NCBI RefSeq assembly: GCF_025753855.1
Contig: NZ_JAOWPT010000013.1
Location: 1 to 64,000 of the forward strand
DNA: 64,000 nucleotides
Source of the DNA: Mesorhizobium sp. ZC-5
GTDB lineage: Bacteria > Pseudomonadota > Alphaproteobacteria > Rhizobiales > Rhizobiaceae
Direction of reading: 5' to 3'
Shown here piece after piece: positions 48,249-59,230 of the stretch. A model generated the notes under the pieces. That model had not been told where the DNA came from. It worked only from the letters and a program-made list of their open reading frames with translations, and made no database searches. The position numbers were made by a program, and so were the translations under genes. Each line of letters starts with the position of its first letter. The first letter of the stretch is position 1.

Positions 48249-48986
48249 TCATCTGAGAAATTCTTCCAGTCGGGCTTTTCGGCTTTCCCAATCCGGCATG
48301 ACCGCGTCCAATAAGCTGTGCCATTCCTTTCCATGATTGGGGTGGAATGCATGGGCAAGTTCGTGGCAAATTACGTAGTCAATCAATAAAGGACTGGCCC
48401 TAACCAGATCGACATTGAGGACAATGCGCCCTTTCGGTGTGTAGCTACCCCACCGCTTCGACATTCGACGCACGACCAATATTGGCGTTCGTAAGCCCTT
48501 TCTGGTGAATGGAGGAATGGCCGCCGCTAGTCTCTCCCGAAAAACGGCACGTGCGGTAAGCGTATAGAAGGCGGAAAGCAGACGACGACAATGAACCTGA
48601 TCGTCCACACGTCGCGCCGAGATGTTCAATCTTGAGCCTTCGACGCGGACATACGCGTCATCGGATTCTTCGATTGATAGCCTGTATTGCCTGCCAAGAA
48701 GCAGGTGCGTTTCGCCAGAAACCAATCGTCTCTCGGGCGTGGTGACCGGCCTAGCGGCAATCCGATCGAGTTCACGGAATATCCACGCGCCCTTCCGGCT
48801 CAGCCGTTCATATATCGCATCGATAGGTTCGCCGGACGGAGCAAAGACGACCACTCCTCCCGATGGCTGAACCTCTATGCGTAGGACGCGCCGGTCAGTG
48901 CGCCTTAAATCTGCGACGGTGCGTCGTTCACCCCAGCCAATCTCAATCTGCTCGTGTTTAGCTGATATCGGAGCCAATGACCTCAT
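48249..48986 (-). CDS. YgjP-like zinc metallopeptidase (M48/DUF45 family)
   Basis: 245 aa. The zinc site HELAHAFHPNHGKEW starts at residue 208; upstream is the family motif KRWGSYTPKGRIVLNVDLVR. This is the YgjP/DUF45 group, small cytoplasmic gluzincins that are frequent partners of type I restriction genes. Its start overlaps the hsdR stop by 4 bp (ATGA), so it is the last gene of the operon and translationally coupled to the restriction subunit. Its substrate is unknown; proteolytic control of HsdR, as ClpXP does in E. coli, is one guess. Confidence 0.87.
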   Translation of the reverse strand: MRSLAPISAKHEQIEIGWGERRTVADLRRTDRRVLRIEVQPSGGVVVFAPSGEPIDAIYERLSRKGAWIFRELDRIAARPVTTPERRLVSGETHLLLGRQYRLSIEESDDAYVRVEGSRLNISARRVDDQVHCRRLLSAFYTLTARAVFRERLAAAIPPFTRKGLRTPILVVRRMSKRWGSYTPKGRIVLNVDLVRASPLLIDYVICHELAHAFHPNHGKEWHSLLDAVMPDWESRKARLEEFLR

Positions 48987-51900
48987 TGGGCCAATCTCAC
49001 CCGCGCTGAGGCAAGAACATCATCAATGACTGCATCAAGGATCGATGGGTCAATTAGCAAGCTTCGCCGACCGCGTAACTCTTCGAAAAAGAAATCGTCG
49101 ATGTCGTTACGGATCAGGTTTTCGACGTCACGGTCATTTTGCCAACCAATCTTGCGGCGACTCTGAACAATCCTGCTCACCTCAAGGGCGATGTCCGCAG
49201 CCAGTTCAACGTCACCAACTCCAGCCTTTTCCAAATTGCGCTTTGCCAGTCCCCAGAATGCTTGCGCATGGCTGTCATCGCGGAGGCGGGAAGGCGTCGG
49301 ATCGGCTTCATCCTGTCGGTGCTGGACCTTCTCCCGAAGCTCCTTGACCTTGCTGAGGTAAGTGAGTTCGTTGATCCGTCCCTTATGGAAGTCGGCAATG
49401 GTGTCACTGACCAGCTTGGAAAACTTCTCGAAAAAGACGGGGTCTTCATCCCACTTCTCTTCGATGGACCGCGTCAACTGATGCGCAATCGTATCTGCAA
49501 TCGAGGCATCCGTTTCCGTCTTTTCGCTCCTGCGGGCCTCGATCGCGATATCGTCAAAAATGTTCAGTGGCTCTACCAGTGTTACGACATCGCGCGCGAC
49601 CACGTGTCTATCGAGAAGCTGACGAACGCGCTTTTCGTAAACTCGCCAATCAACTCTGTCGGCGTAGCGAAGGCTTACTGAGGCTCGCAACGACGTGAAA
49701 CGACCTAGATCGTCCTTCCAGCGCTTCAGCAGCTCAGGCTTTGTATTCTCGACAAAAGACGGGGACGCCAGTGCCACGGTGAACGCTCGAGAGAACTCGG
49801 AAAGCCGCCGATAGAATTCTTCGCGGGTTTCTTCGTCTGCCAGCAATCGGGCATAGGCTTCGGCATCGTAGGTGTTGGATACGGACTTAAAAATATCCAG
49901 GAGCGCCGCATGCGCTCCCGGCACTTTGTTCGCTTCGTCTCGGATCGCTACTATGCTCTGGGCAATATCTTCAGCGCTGAATCCTTGCAGCGCGTCATAG
50001 CTCGCCAGCGCTTCGCCAAGGTTCTTCAGAACTCCGGTATAGTCGATGATGAACCCGAAGGGTTTTTCGGGAGCACCCTCCTCATCAAAGACCCGGTTCA
50101 CGCGCGCTATGGCTTGCAAAAGCCCATGCTCCTTGAGCCTACGGGCCACGTAAAGAACTGTGTTTCGCGGCGCATCGAAGCCCGTCAGCAGCTTATCAAC
50201 GACAATGATGATATCGGGATAAGACGGCCCTTGGAATTGCTCGACAATAGTCTTGTTGTAGGCCTCCTCGCCGCCGTAGCGCTCCATCATCCTTCGCCAG
50301 AAGGTGCGAACGAGATCGTCGTCAGACTCATCGACCTCGTCTTCACTTTCACGCATCTCAGGGGCAGAGATTACGACTTCGGTGCTGACCACCCCGAACG
50401 TGTCAAACAGCTTCTTGAGCTGGATGGCAGCGCGCTTGGATGACGCCGCAAGCTGTCCTTTTAGGCCAGTGCCTTTGAAGTTGGTGGCGAAATGCTGCCC
50501 GACATCGAACGCGATGGATTGAAGTCGCGACTCGATCCCCTCCACCTCACGCGCCCGGCTCATCTTCCGCTTTAGGTCTGCTCGCTGATCGTCTGATAGA
50601 CCGCGCGTGTGTACTTCAAACCATCGGTCGATTTGGCCTTCGTCTACGTCGGTAACGACTTCTCGCCCTTCGTAGAGGAGCGGCACCACTGCCTTGTCGG
50701 TGACCGCGTCCCGCATCGAGTACGACGGCTGCACGAGATCGCCGAACTTGGCGAAGGTGCTCTTTTCCTTCTTGGCAATGGGGGTGCCGGTAAAGGCGAT
50801 GAAGCAAGCGTTGGGCAGCACTTCCCGCATTCGAGCGTGGAGGCTATCCAGATTGCCGTACTGGCTACGGTGACTCTCGTCCACGAGCACGAAAATCTCA
50901 GAGGACTGGTCGACAACCCGCCGCTTGTTGAGGCCCGCCCTGAATTTGTGAATCAAAGTCGTGACGACGGGGGTCTTGTCCTCAATCAGCGCCAGAAGGT
51001 TCTCGCCAGTCGCGGCACGCTTGGGTTCCTGCCCTGTGGCACGGAACGTCTTTGAAATCTGATCGTCCAGATCGGTTCTGTCAGTGACGATCACAATCCG
51101 GGCCAAAGCATTGGTCATGACAATGGCTTTGGCGAGCATCACCATCGTCAAGCTCTTGCCCGAACCCTGCGTGTGCCAAACAACGCCTCCTCGCCGCTTG
51201 CCGCCGGGATCGCGTTCCTCGGTGCGCTTAAGCAACGTCTCGATGGTCGCGACCTGCTGATAGCGGGCTACCTTCTTGTGCGGACCGTCGAACAGCATGT
51301 AACGCCGGACAAGCCGCATGAAACGTTCGGGCCGGCATAGGCCCACAAGTGTCTCGTCCAGCGGCGTGACGAAGCGATGATCCTCCATCAGCCCGTTGTG
51401 ACGTTTCATGTATGAGGCGAAATCCAGTGCCACCCGTTTGCCCTCAACGGTGTCGAGGGGCCGATTCACGACTTGTACGGCGAAGTCGGCAGGGTCTTCT
51501 CGCTCCTTCCAGACGCTCCATAGCTTGCGCGGCGTGCCGACAGTGCCATAACGCGGGTCATGGCTGTTTGCCGAAAGCAGCAACTGCGCCGAATAGAAGA
51601 GCGCAGGCACGCCTTCTCCTGCCTTCTGGTTGCGGATCTGCTGACCCACACCCTGATCCGATGAGACATGAGAGGCCTTCACCTCGATCACGCCAAGCGG
51701 GATGCCATTGACGAACAGTACAAGGTCAACGCGGATCGTCGGCCCACCCGCTTCGCTGACCGTATACTCGGCGGCGACTTGAAATGTGTTAGCGCGCCAG
51801 TCGGACCAGTCGATGAACTTGAAGGGCCATTCCCGGGATGTCGCTCCAATGGATTGCGGCAGGGCGATACCGAGAAACAGGTCGTCGGTCATACGCTCAT

Positions 51901-58640: not shown

Positions 58641-59230
58641 TGGGCACTCCTTGAAAAATTGCGTCCTGTGTCCGCCGCTCGAATTGCGCGGCTGACAGCT
58701 TCACGGCTTAAAATTGTATTGAGGTCGGCAAGCTGCTTGAGCAGCGTCGCCTCGCGCTCAAACGACTGCGCAAGTCCGGCGATTAGCTGCTGCTGTTCCA
58801 TCGGAGGCAGTGGAACCTCAGTCTTTTCCAGCGCCTCTTTTGCGAGGCGAGCGAGTCCAGTGCCTTGTTTACCGCCGGATAAAGCGGCCTGTGTCGTGGG
58901 CAGATCGAGAAAGGCCGCAAGGTACTGCGGATTTAAAAAGGCTCGATTAGGTCTGACCAGATAAAGGTCCAACGAGATAAAAGCCCCGAACACCGCCTCC
59001 GTGGCAACGCAGACATCCGTGGTCACACCGCGCGCTCCGACGATCAGGTCACCCTCTTCAATTGTCAGCGCGCGCGCCACCGCAGGCGTTTCACCGATGG
59101 CAAGAGCTGGCGATTTACCCGCCCTGATGTCGGAAAGGTCGGAAAGTCGTATGAATCGAGCAGCACCATGGGCGGCCTCGCGGACCGAGACCCCAGACAG
59201 TACGTTCGCGATTTCTCTGAGTTCGAGCAT
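58637..59230 (-). CDS. Half-size specificity (HsdS-like) protein
   Basis: 197 aa, about half of a normal HsdS. One target-recognition domain (ARFIRLSDLSDIRAGKS, EEGDLIVGARGVTT, AFLNPQYLAAFLDLP, SGGKQGTGLARL) and one spacer helix (VPLPPMEQQQLIAGLAQSFE). First gene of the eight-gene operon, overlapping hsdM by 4 bp. Half-S proteins can dimerise to recognise a palindromic site, or pair with another S. Not a fragment: the next gene is coupled and the frame is intact. Confidence 0.82.
   Translation of the reverse strand: MLELREIANVLSGVSVREAAHGAARFIRLSDLSDIRAGKSPALAIGETPAVARALTIEEGDLIVGARGVTTDVCVATEAVFGAFISLDLYLVRPNRAFLNPQYLAAFLDLPTTQAALSGGKQGTGLARLAKEALEKTEVPLPPMEQQQLIAGLAQSFEREATLLKQLADLNTILSREAVSRAIRAADTGRNFSRSAQ

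Follow-up and report, generated by a model that had tools for sequence, protein, structure and literature searches.

A type I restriction-modification operon best read as a chassis with plug-in positions for defence genes in Mesorhizobium sp. ZC-5

Within the window, by which we mean the whole 64,000-nucleotide stretch of Mesorhizobium sp. ZC-5 DNA that was analysed, a type I restriction-modification (R-M) operon contains several genes beyond those for its R, M and S subunits, which raises the question of whether all of its genes constitute one co-evolved defence machine. The sequence-only reading had answered that they do, arguing that every gene is coupled to the next and that the extra genes must therefore be built in. 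From the comparison with related loci presented here, we consider it probable that the operon is instead a type I R-M chassis into whose slots other genes can be plugged, and not a single eight-part machine.

The operon and its restriction-modification chassis

A re-check of the open reading frames found eight intact minus-strand genes covering 48249..59230, all of them placed exactly where the sequence-only reading had put them. Neighbouring genes overlap by 4 (half-S/hsdM), 8 (hsdM/GIY-YIG), 4 (GIY-YIG/hsdS), 4 (hsdS/TIGR04141) and 4 bases (TIGR04141/DUF4917), followed by a 3-base gap between DUF4917 and hsdR and a 4-base overlap between hsdR and YgjP. The genes and the adjoining integrase are:

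58637..59230, minus strand: half-S, a half-sized HsdS with one target-recognition domain, the first gene of the chassis (Methylase_S 39.9 bits, cut-off 22)
57072..58640, minus strand: hsdM, adenine methyltransferase (N6_Mtase 326.8 bits, HsdM_N 74.7 bits, TIGR00497 above cut-off)
56117..57079, minus strand: GIY-YIG/DUF4357 protein (DUF4357 49.4 bits; PADLOC PDC-S14, E 6.8e-104)
54915..56120, minus strand: hsdS, specificity subunit (Methylase_S, two stretches)
53269..54918, minus strand: TIGR04141/DUF6119 protein (DUF6119 505.5 bits)
52190..53272, minus strand: DUF4917 protein (DUF4917 222.4 bits; PADLOC PDC-S21, E 8.6e-120)
48983..52186, minus strand: hsdR, motor-nuclease subunit (TIGR00348 422.4 bits, above cut-off; HSDR_N, SWI2_SNF2)
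48249..48986, minus strand: YgjP/SprT-like zinc metalloprotease (YgjP-like 164 bits; HELAH)
59503..60669, plus strand: tyrosine integrase, divergent and adjoining the operon (Phage_integrase 52.2 bits)

The gene names were cross-checked with Pfam, NCBIfam and PADLOC profiles, which all agree, and the earlier names hold up with the exception of GIY-YIG itself, for which Pfam gives no match at E 0.01 and recognises only DUF4357. The start of this gene is the ATG at 57079, with an upstream TTG at 57088 as a possible alternative; its relatives on two plasmids are annotated as 'GIY-YIG nuclease family protein'.

HsdM has an N6-adenine methyltransferase domain with an intact NPPF motif, hsdS contains two target-recognition stretches and half-S one, and in HsdR the EVK nuclease motif, the GSGKS Walker A motif and the DESH DExx box are all intact. 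Judged by these genes and motifs, the locus is predicted to encode a type I R-M system comprising HsdM, HsdS and HsdR, and the domain profiles bear out the description of the operon as one carrying additional defence-type genes. It does not belong to the MADS systems, since its scores for MAD2 (65.1 versus 720 bits) and MAD5 (30.6 versus 400 bits) fall far below the curated cut-offs.

The chassis is best read as consisting of half-S, hsdM, hsdS and hsdR together with the YgjP/SprT-like protease. Of the 40 mapped relatives that have hsdM, 29 carry an S gene of less than 300 aa ahead of it, and the half-S of the window is 94% identical to its counterpart in Devosia geojensis (locus L083). The full-length hsdS is divergent: compared with six relatives that have an HsdM 89-98% identical to that of the window, it shows 26-48% identity. 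A comparison of the half-S and hsdS DNA brought up a single 34-base match at 76% but no extended repeat common to the two, and thus no evidence that half-S acts as a recombinational switching partner of hsdS.

The protease had been counted among the extra genes, a placement that the related loci contradict. Among the mapped relatives, YgjP nearly always follows directly after this kind of hsdR; it co-diverges with HsdR, as HsdM does, and the chassis copies fall mostly in a clade separate from second YgjP copies. YgjP is thus a near-constant partner of this hsdR clade. Among the literature matches listed for YgjP/SprT/DUF45 in combination with type I R-M, none contains YgjP (one DUF45 match was to DUF450). 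One could speculate, quite tentatively, that the protease is a fourth core subunit of a large type I clade, acting on HsdR by removing or degrading the motor when it lingers on DNA or encounters unmodified host sites. Built-in restriction alleviation of this kind, which would not depend on ClpXP of the host, would allow plasmids and islands to carry the operon from one host to another and would make it the standard carrier of plug-in defence genes between S and R. ArdC was considered as an earlier example of a protease that targets type I enzymes, but its protease activity is reported to be unnecessary for antirestriction (PMC7213743), which argues against a simple analogy.

Cargo turnover in related loci

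The chassis offers two cargo positions. Slot 1, between hsdM and hsdS, holds the GIY-YIG/DUF4357 gene here and RhuM or nothing in many other chassis, while slot 2, between hsdS and hsdR, is occupied in the window by TIGR04141 and DUF4917. We took a census of slot 2 in 25 loci selected by HsdR, in which hsdS and hsdR were both recognised by profile or annotation, a small and non-random sample skewed towards plasmids and the phylum of the window. One or more same-strand genes, from many unrelated families, lie in the slot in 22 of the 25. The contents of slot 2 were:

KwaA and KwaB (Kiwa): L166
Shedu: L177, L178
PD-T4-6-type kinase: L174; L180 (by annotation)
AbiD: L181, L277, L279
RhuM: L280
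YhcG nuclease PDC-S02: L282
PDC-S12: L183, L281
PDC-S18: L165
HAD PDC-S34: L169, L176, L178
DUF3800: L163, L168, L175, L177, L284; L182 (by annotation)
TIGR04141: L179 (by annotation and profile)
uncharacterised 319-aa gene: L170
empty: L164, L275, L283

The PADLOC PDC families are candidates, perhaps chosen for their proximity to R-M genes, and their labels do not constitute independent proof of a defence function. Loci at equal backbone distance from the window (HsdR 87-88%, HsdM 89-90%) carry different cargo in slot 2, namely TIGR04141 (L085, L086), the kinase (L174) or DUF3800 (L175), and in L129 and L130 DUF4917 occupies the same slot with TIGR04141 absent. Together, the loci demonstrate both the gene order and the turnover of cargo.

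The D. geojensis locus is particularly informative, as its R, M and TIGR04141 proteins are 96-98% identical to those of the window, and precisely DUF4917 is absent: by blastn, the DNA aligns with the window up to 53287 and resumes from 52188. DUF4917 is therefore probably a recent and precise insertion into slot 2. Because the similarity between the two loci spans the integrase (89.9% over 56524-61735 of the window), the operon and the integrase probably move together. With slot contents that vary and DUF4917 missing from the closest relatives found, tight coupling does not imply that the extra genes are built in, and neither an obligate eight-gene system nor one that co-evolved as a unit is supported.

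Predicted properties of the slot 2 proteins

The predicted model of the 360-aa DUF4917 protein (pLDDT 92.1) has as its best Foldseek match the SIR2 protein of SIR2-HerA (8su9, E 5.2e-10), with matches to sirtuins from E 1.8e-4. Against the E. coli SIR2-HerA chains the TM score is about 0.5 at 13-16% identity. A PDB profile search finds SIR2-like chains at E 0.025 and 0.042, and the scores for Pfam SIR2_2 (20.6 bits, cut-off 24.5) and NF042942 (19.5 bits, cut-off 500) are below threshold. The SIR2 NADase pocket residues N, Y, D and H (PMC11263360), assigned here by motif and not by superposition, are conserved in an alignment of 38 DUF4917 sequences as N149 (37 sequences) and Y150, D151 and H206 (all 38). 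The earlier description of the protein as SIR2-like is thus upheld, and since this fold and these residues are those of antiphage NADases, DUF4917 is a predicted NAD hydrolase that likely causes NAD loss. It shares them with the SIR2 protein of SIR2-HerA and the Sir2 domains of DSR2 and ThsA; it differs in being a 360-aa protein with no HerA gene among its operon neighbours.

For TIGR04141 (model pLDDT 86.6), the fold search against the PDB gave no match at E 0.001, the best being RdgC (E 4.1e-3, TM 0.19/0.29), and a viral fold search placed RdgC at 1.7e-3 and an exonuclease of a phage at 3.2e-3. E405, D408, H418, K420 and Q434 are invariant in 31 of 31 members, which is suggestive of a PD-(D/E)XK nuclease, but a Pfam scan of these members recovered only DUF6119, the next family reaching at most 3 members with a best E of 0.085, and the assignment stays a guess. 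Neither TIGR04141 nor PDC-S21 appears by name among the literature matches listed for TIGR04141, DUF6119, DUF4917, PDC-S14 and PDC-S21.

Alternative explanations and known systems

As DUF4917 and TIGR04141 are neighbours with a 4-base overlap, they could form a sensor-effector or toxin-antitoxin pair, and the sequence-only reading had proposed that TIGR04141 gates DUF4917. We regard such a pair as highly improbable, and the gating as unsupported, given that DUF4917 is found within 6 kb of TIGR04141 in 0 of 46 loci and that no plasmid record contains both (35 versus 26 records for the two families). Among 387 genomes of the window's class, DUF4917 occurs in 6 and DUF6119/TIGR04141 in 12, with both only in the window's own genome; a single one of 18 other DUF4917 genomes also has TIGR04141, on another contig, and in L026, L089-L091 and L093-L095 the upstream neighbour of TIGR04141 is a different protein of 446-464 aa. 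The pairing is thus not conserved. The composite-system idea was to fail if the two genes occurred mostly apart and had no link to hsd genes: the first part has come about, whereas TIGR04141 does show the link in the window's subfamily, where 31 of the 46 loci are hsd-linked, in a search whose alignment drew five of its seven members (window, L027, L028, L029, L042) from hsd loci or their vicinity. This linkage exceeds what a free module would need. In a family-wide sample of the class it is found in only 2 of 10 cases, and over one common set of 23 loci the distance correlation is 0.98 between HsdR and HsdM and 0.40 between HsdR and TIGR04141.

The gene layout also recalls PrrC. The prrC gene sits between the S and R genes, and here too an effector gene is embedded in the hsd operon. 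On this model, which corresponds to the two-layer scheme of the sequence-only reading, the slot 2 cargo, chiefly DUF4917, would be kept inactive by the R-M complex and fire once restriction is blocked or evaded by a phage. In E. coli, the type IC locus ecoprrI contains prrC, which becomes active upon inhibition of EcoPrrI by Stp (PMC12707154), although PrrC is a tRNA nuclease and the present genes encode a predicted SIR2-fold protein and TIGR04141. Coupling has moreover been proposed by Makarova et al. (2012, PMC3506569), who mention Sir2 enzymes in linkage with type I R-M; translational coupling in the operon is tight, and DUF4917 is also found within or next to further hsd operons (L129, L130, L205, L031, L032). 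Since the slot is so constant, PrrC-like functional contact of the cargo with HsdS or HsdR is possible. We nevertheless consider a guard of this kind unlikely. DUF4917 is not restricted to R-M loci: 53 of 58 fetched loci have neither hsdM nor hsdR within 6 kb, and 52 have no hsdM, R or S, although viral contigs, some cut short, make up 34 of the 58, and such an origin disfavours R-M neighbours. DUF4917 can thus be useful, and be controlled, without R-M. Many unrelated enzymes share the slot, each of which would need its own contact with the R-M complex, and the embedded TgvAB protects without the HsdR nuclease (PMC11411939). That the operon is an ordinary R-M operon stacked by chance with insertions of no benefit to defence is, in turn, very improbable: of all loci compared, the window alone has the DUF4917 insertion in this combination, but all eight frames are open, overlaps and catalytic residues are preserved, and known defence genes recur in the same slot of other genomes.

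We therefore favour, as the probable overall explanation, a mobile R-M chassis made up of half-S, M, S and R, with YgjP as its dedicated metalloprotease. Its two cargo positions would hold separate, independent defence modules that borrow the transcription and translational coupling of the operon. Restriction of unmodified DNA would be one layer; DUF4917 would most likely sense infection by itself, hydrolyse NAD and stop the cell, and TIGR04141 would most likely act independently as well, as a further effector or sensor that is perhaps a nuclease. Here NAD hydrolysis, independent triggering and the functions of TIGR04141 and YgjP are what we infer.

Among known systems, TgvAB is likewise a two-gene module, one that lies in an active type I operon with hsdS and hsdR on either side and works without the HsdR nuclease (PMC11411939, PMC12409362), and, like TgvAB, the cargo found here also exists alone elsewhere; unlike that cargo, TgvAB acts as a type IV restriction enzyme, and the available portions of these papers mention no YgjP for it. 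RloF (2005 work, as cited in PMC5183652 and PMC11411939) is a DUF262 protein, and the present chassis differs in having half-S and YgjP. The general principle of defence genes embedded in immune operons is that of Payne et al. (2024 preprint, reference 68 of PMC11411939). Both the coupling of SIR2 with type I R-M and the embedding of genes are already published, and the plug-in pattern together with the dedicated protease is the newer part.

If this explanation is right, a recognisable R-M chassis would mark a slot filled with defence genes, and its uncharacterised occupants (TIGR04141/DUF6119, DUF3800 and the 319-aa gene of L170) could be ranked as candidates when new antiphage systems are sought. 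The explanation would also raise the question of why a protease almost always accompanies one type I clade, and the answer may show how such operons establish themselves safely in new hosts.

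Layout of the operon and its surroundings

The operon consists of eight intact minus-strand open reading frames that span 59230 to 48249 of the window and are joined, exactly as the sequence-only reading stated, by five overlaps (4, 8, 4, 4 and 4 bases), then a 3-base gap and a final 4-base overlap. The motifs NPPF of HsdM, GSGKS, DESH and EVK of HsdR and HELAH of YgjP are all intact. At E 0.01 neither TIGR04141 nor YgjP matched a PADLOC family.

Families assigned to the operon genes
half-S and hsdS, minus strand: Methylase_S
hsdM, minus strand: N6_Mtase, HsdM_N
DUF4357 protein, minus strand: DUF4357; PADLOC PDC-S14
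TIGR04141/DUF6119 gene, minus strand: TIGR04141/DUF6119
DUF4917 gene, minus strand: DUF4917; PADLOC PDC-S21
hsdR, minus strand: HSDR_N, SWI2_SNF2, TIGR00348
YgjP gene, minus strand: YgjP-like

The half-sized HsdS (58637-59230) lies upstream of hsdM in 29 of 40 mapped relatives, and in the six closest it is better conserved (63-94% identity) than hsdS (26-48%). Adjoining the operon at 59503-61735 are a tyrosine integrase gene in divergent orientation and a small gene resembling HTH_17 (24.4 bits, below the cut-off of 27); DNA similarity to Devosia geojensis extends over both. GC content is 0.55-0.60 from 44 kb onward versus 0.59-0.67 earlier, and hsdR found no match in the two same-genus genomes searched. 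Given the integrase, the shared Devosia DNA, the GC drop and the lack of a same-genus hsdR match, the operon and integrase region are probably a mobile island. Some 115 kb from the operon, the same contig holds a second, distant hsdR-like gene (C13:167706-168266; 25% over 194 residues).

A chassis with exchangeable cargo

The type I genes and the YgjP protease form a chassis with exchangeable cargo. We chose operons by HsdR similarity, not by cargo: 13 regions from the class search (several cut by contig ends), 10 from the phylum search and 10 plasmids out of 423 records (nine within the first 15 rows, plus one from Klebsiella). Profiles or annotation identified both hsdS and hsdR in 25 of the 33 regions; hsdS was missing or had no clear position in the eight excluded (L060, L064, L167, L171, L172, L173, L276 and L278), and AbiD and a Fic gene precede hsdR in L276 and L278. 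Left uncounted were plasmid rows H67, H68 and H72, which had already been obtained via TIGR04141 and all carry it in the slot, and an eleventh phylum region, L285, chosen because its genome has both families, which has YhcG in the slot and TIGR04141 past YgjP on the opposite strand. At least one same-strand gene lies between hsdS and hsdR (the S-R slot) in 22 of the 25 loci; L164, L275 and L283 have none, the gap of L164 holding just a 90-aa frame and an opposite-strand frame.

Genes found in the S-R slot
KwaA and KwaB: L166
Shedu: L177, L178
Kinase: L174 (PD-T4-6 type), L180 (by annotation)
AbiD: L181, L277, L279
RhuM: L280
YhcG nuclease: L282
PDC-S12: L183, L281
PDC-S18: L165
HAD PDC-S34: L169, L176, L178
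DUF3800: L163, L168, L175, L177, L284, L182 (by annotation)
TIGR04141: L179
No family assigned: L170

L031, obtained via DUF4917, has an FRG gene (PDC-S15) in this slot, and the hsdM-hsdS position is empty or holds a GIY-YIG gene or RhuM in many loci. With the backbone equally distant (HsdR 87-88% identical) the cargo is wholly different, with TIGR04141 in L085 and L086, a kinase in L174 and DUF3800 in L175; hsdS is 26-48% identical in L083-L086, L174 and L175 while HsdM is 89-98%. The slot genes of L170 (319 aa, 6505-7464; no Pfam or defence family) and L281 (620 aa, 5794-7656; no defence family, cold-shock Pfam match below cut-off) are candidate new defence genes.

YgjP, which the sequence-only reading had counted among the extra genes, is instead part of the chassis. 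When 30 class-search HsdR loci are ordered by score, it accompanies hsdR in the top 21, the window included, lying directly after the best HsdR frame in 20 and after a second HsdR frame in L071 (the copies of L064 and L071 are cut at the stretch end). It is found in none of the next nine, seven of them informative, since the sequence beyond hsdR is 0 bases long in L079 and 174 in L080. The phylum search added it in 21 of 25 further HsdR loci; the misses are true in L259 and L271, the sequence of L260 ends at hsdR and L264 has a stop within hsdR. Across 40 operons, all required to have YgjP adjoining hsdR, pairwise distances correlate at r 0.944 for HsdR-HsdM and 0.945 for HsdR-YgjP, and in the 23 of them bearing TIGR04141, under the same requirement, at 0.98, 0.94 and, for HsdR-TIGR04141, 0.40 (Mantel p 0.001 each, a guide only as the sequences are related). 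A second YgjP copy apart from hsdR occurs in 14 of 15 genomes searched, including the window's. A tree was built from 26 copies, leaving out three pieces below 150 aa; 13 of 15 hsdR-linked copies and one unlinked copy share one side of a branch with support 98/98. Linkage changes 3 times on this tree against 8.6 for shuffled labels, none of 500 shuffles being as low; linked copies L213 and L227 group with unlinked ones, and several branches are long.

Relation of TIGR04141 to DUF4917

TIGR04141 and DUF4917 are not partners. None of the 46 TIGR04141 loci from a profile scan of genome contigs, some broken by contig ends, has DUF4917 within 6 kb. Among 387 Alphaproteobacteria genomes (E 0.001) DUF4917 occurs in 6, DUF6119 in 12 and both in the window's own only; for plasmid records the counts are 35, 26 and 0, and viral contigs yielded no TIGR04141 versus 34 DUF4917 loci. 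Of 18 other DUF4917 genomes a single one, G493, also carries TIGR04141, there on a different contig (G636 was excluded as below the family cut-off).

In the genome-contig scan, biased to hsd loci since 5 of 7 alignment sequences lie in or near hsd genes, hsdM or hsdR is within 6 kb in 31 of 46 loci, and hsdR is the gene right after TIGR04141 in 27 (23 scripted, plus L084, L085, L089 and L090 from maps, where the hsdR start overlaps further). The family-wide class sample, with 10 of 11 other genomes examined, gave two TIGR04141 loci near hsd genes (L042, and L043 with hsdM only). For DUF4917, hsdM or hsdR is within 6 kb in 5 of 58 loci (L129, L130, L205, L031 and L032), and L201 has hsdS only; these 58, several incomplete, comprise 34 viral loci, 5 from the 35 plasmid records and, from the phylum and class samples, 13 and 6 loci. 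In L129 and L130, whose operons are of the kind described here, DUF4917 occupies the S-R slot with TIGR04141 absent, and follows a 76-aa gene (DUF2188 in L129, first residues alike in L130).

None of the closest relatives found has DUF4917. Devosia geojensis (L083) shares 98% identity in HsdM and 96% in each of HsdR and TIGR04141, and blastn aligns window positions 47901-52187 at 84.3%, 53287-55013 at 88.8% and 56524-61735 at 89.9%; window 53287 to 52188 is the DUF4917 gene, whose L083 counterpart is at most about 18 bases. TIGR04141 also adjoins hsdR in L084, L085 and L086, with no DUF4917 in between. Because an ATGA overlap joins TIGR04141 and hsdR in L083, DUF4917 appears to have entered exactly at this joint.

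A 446-aa gene lies directly upstream of TIGR04141 in L026 (7652-8992), L089 (6914-8254) and L090 (8155-9495), within hsd operons in the latter two and without hsd genes in L026. Pfam gave nothing for the L026 copy (E 0.1) and only RecC_C at 0.098 for that of L090, and PADLOC no family for the former. L091 and L093-L095, likewise without hsd genes, have a 447-464 aa gene upstream of TIGR04141 that may or may not belong to this family. The 446-aa gene and TIGR04141 possibly form a two-gene module. On an Agrobacterium plasmid (L030, 2330-10644) TIGR04141 adjoins a 6.4-kb NACHT gene in a stretch with no annotated hsd gene; on a Mesorhizobium B2-1-8 plasmid (L179, 1-2683) a SIR2 family gene and a hypothetical gene lie directly upstream of the half-S of a TIGR04141-bearing chassis.

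Predicted activities and the two-layer idea

The DUF4917 model (pLDDT 92.1, pTM 0.91) best matches the SIR2 of SIR2-HerA (8su9, E 5.2e-10, TM 0.54), then sirtuins. N149 is conserved in 37 of 38 sequences and Y150, D151 and H206 in all 38. Matched by motif rather than superposition, these resemble pocket residues N133, Y134, D135 and H171 of DSR2, which are reported to be kept in Sir2-HerA and ThsA, with N112 and H152 as the ThsA catalytic pair (PMC11263360). The fold match and kept pocket residues strongly suggest that DUF4917 is an NAD hydrolase. The TIGR04141 model is good (pLDDT 86.6) and matched no solved structure at E 0.001; its residues E373, D391, E405, D408, H418, K420, H430 and Q434, kept in 31 of 31, lie on a modelled strand and helix that may recall a nuclease core.

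YgjP may act on HsdR, since translocating EcoKI HsdR is degraded by E. coli ClpXP in restriction alleviation (PMC4231737), and a linked protease could do ClpXP's job in any host. This reading is weakened by SprT-like ArdC, which counters type I restriction without needing protease activity (PMC7213743).

The embedding of genes in R-M operons is already published. A 2024 preprint (Payne et al.) reportedly deals with embedded defences. Our literature search, covering few subscription papers or preprints, found no publication on the chassis, the slot statistics or the protease. PrrC is embedded in EcoprrI (PMC12707154), TgvAB sits between hsdS and hsdR (PMC11411939, PMC12409362), the Campylobacter rlo and mlo genes are embedded in R-M loci (PMC5183652), and the two-layer scheme, with Sir2 enzymes found at type I loci, goes back to a 2012 proposal (PMC3506569). 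An obligate link between DUF4917 and R-M is disfavoured because DUF4917 mostly occurs without R-M. Restriction would be the first layer, and DUF4917 would be an independent NAD-depleting module that may gain expression and mobility from co-transcription with the hsd genes.
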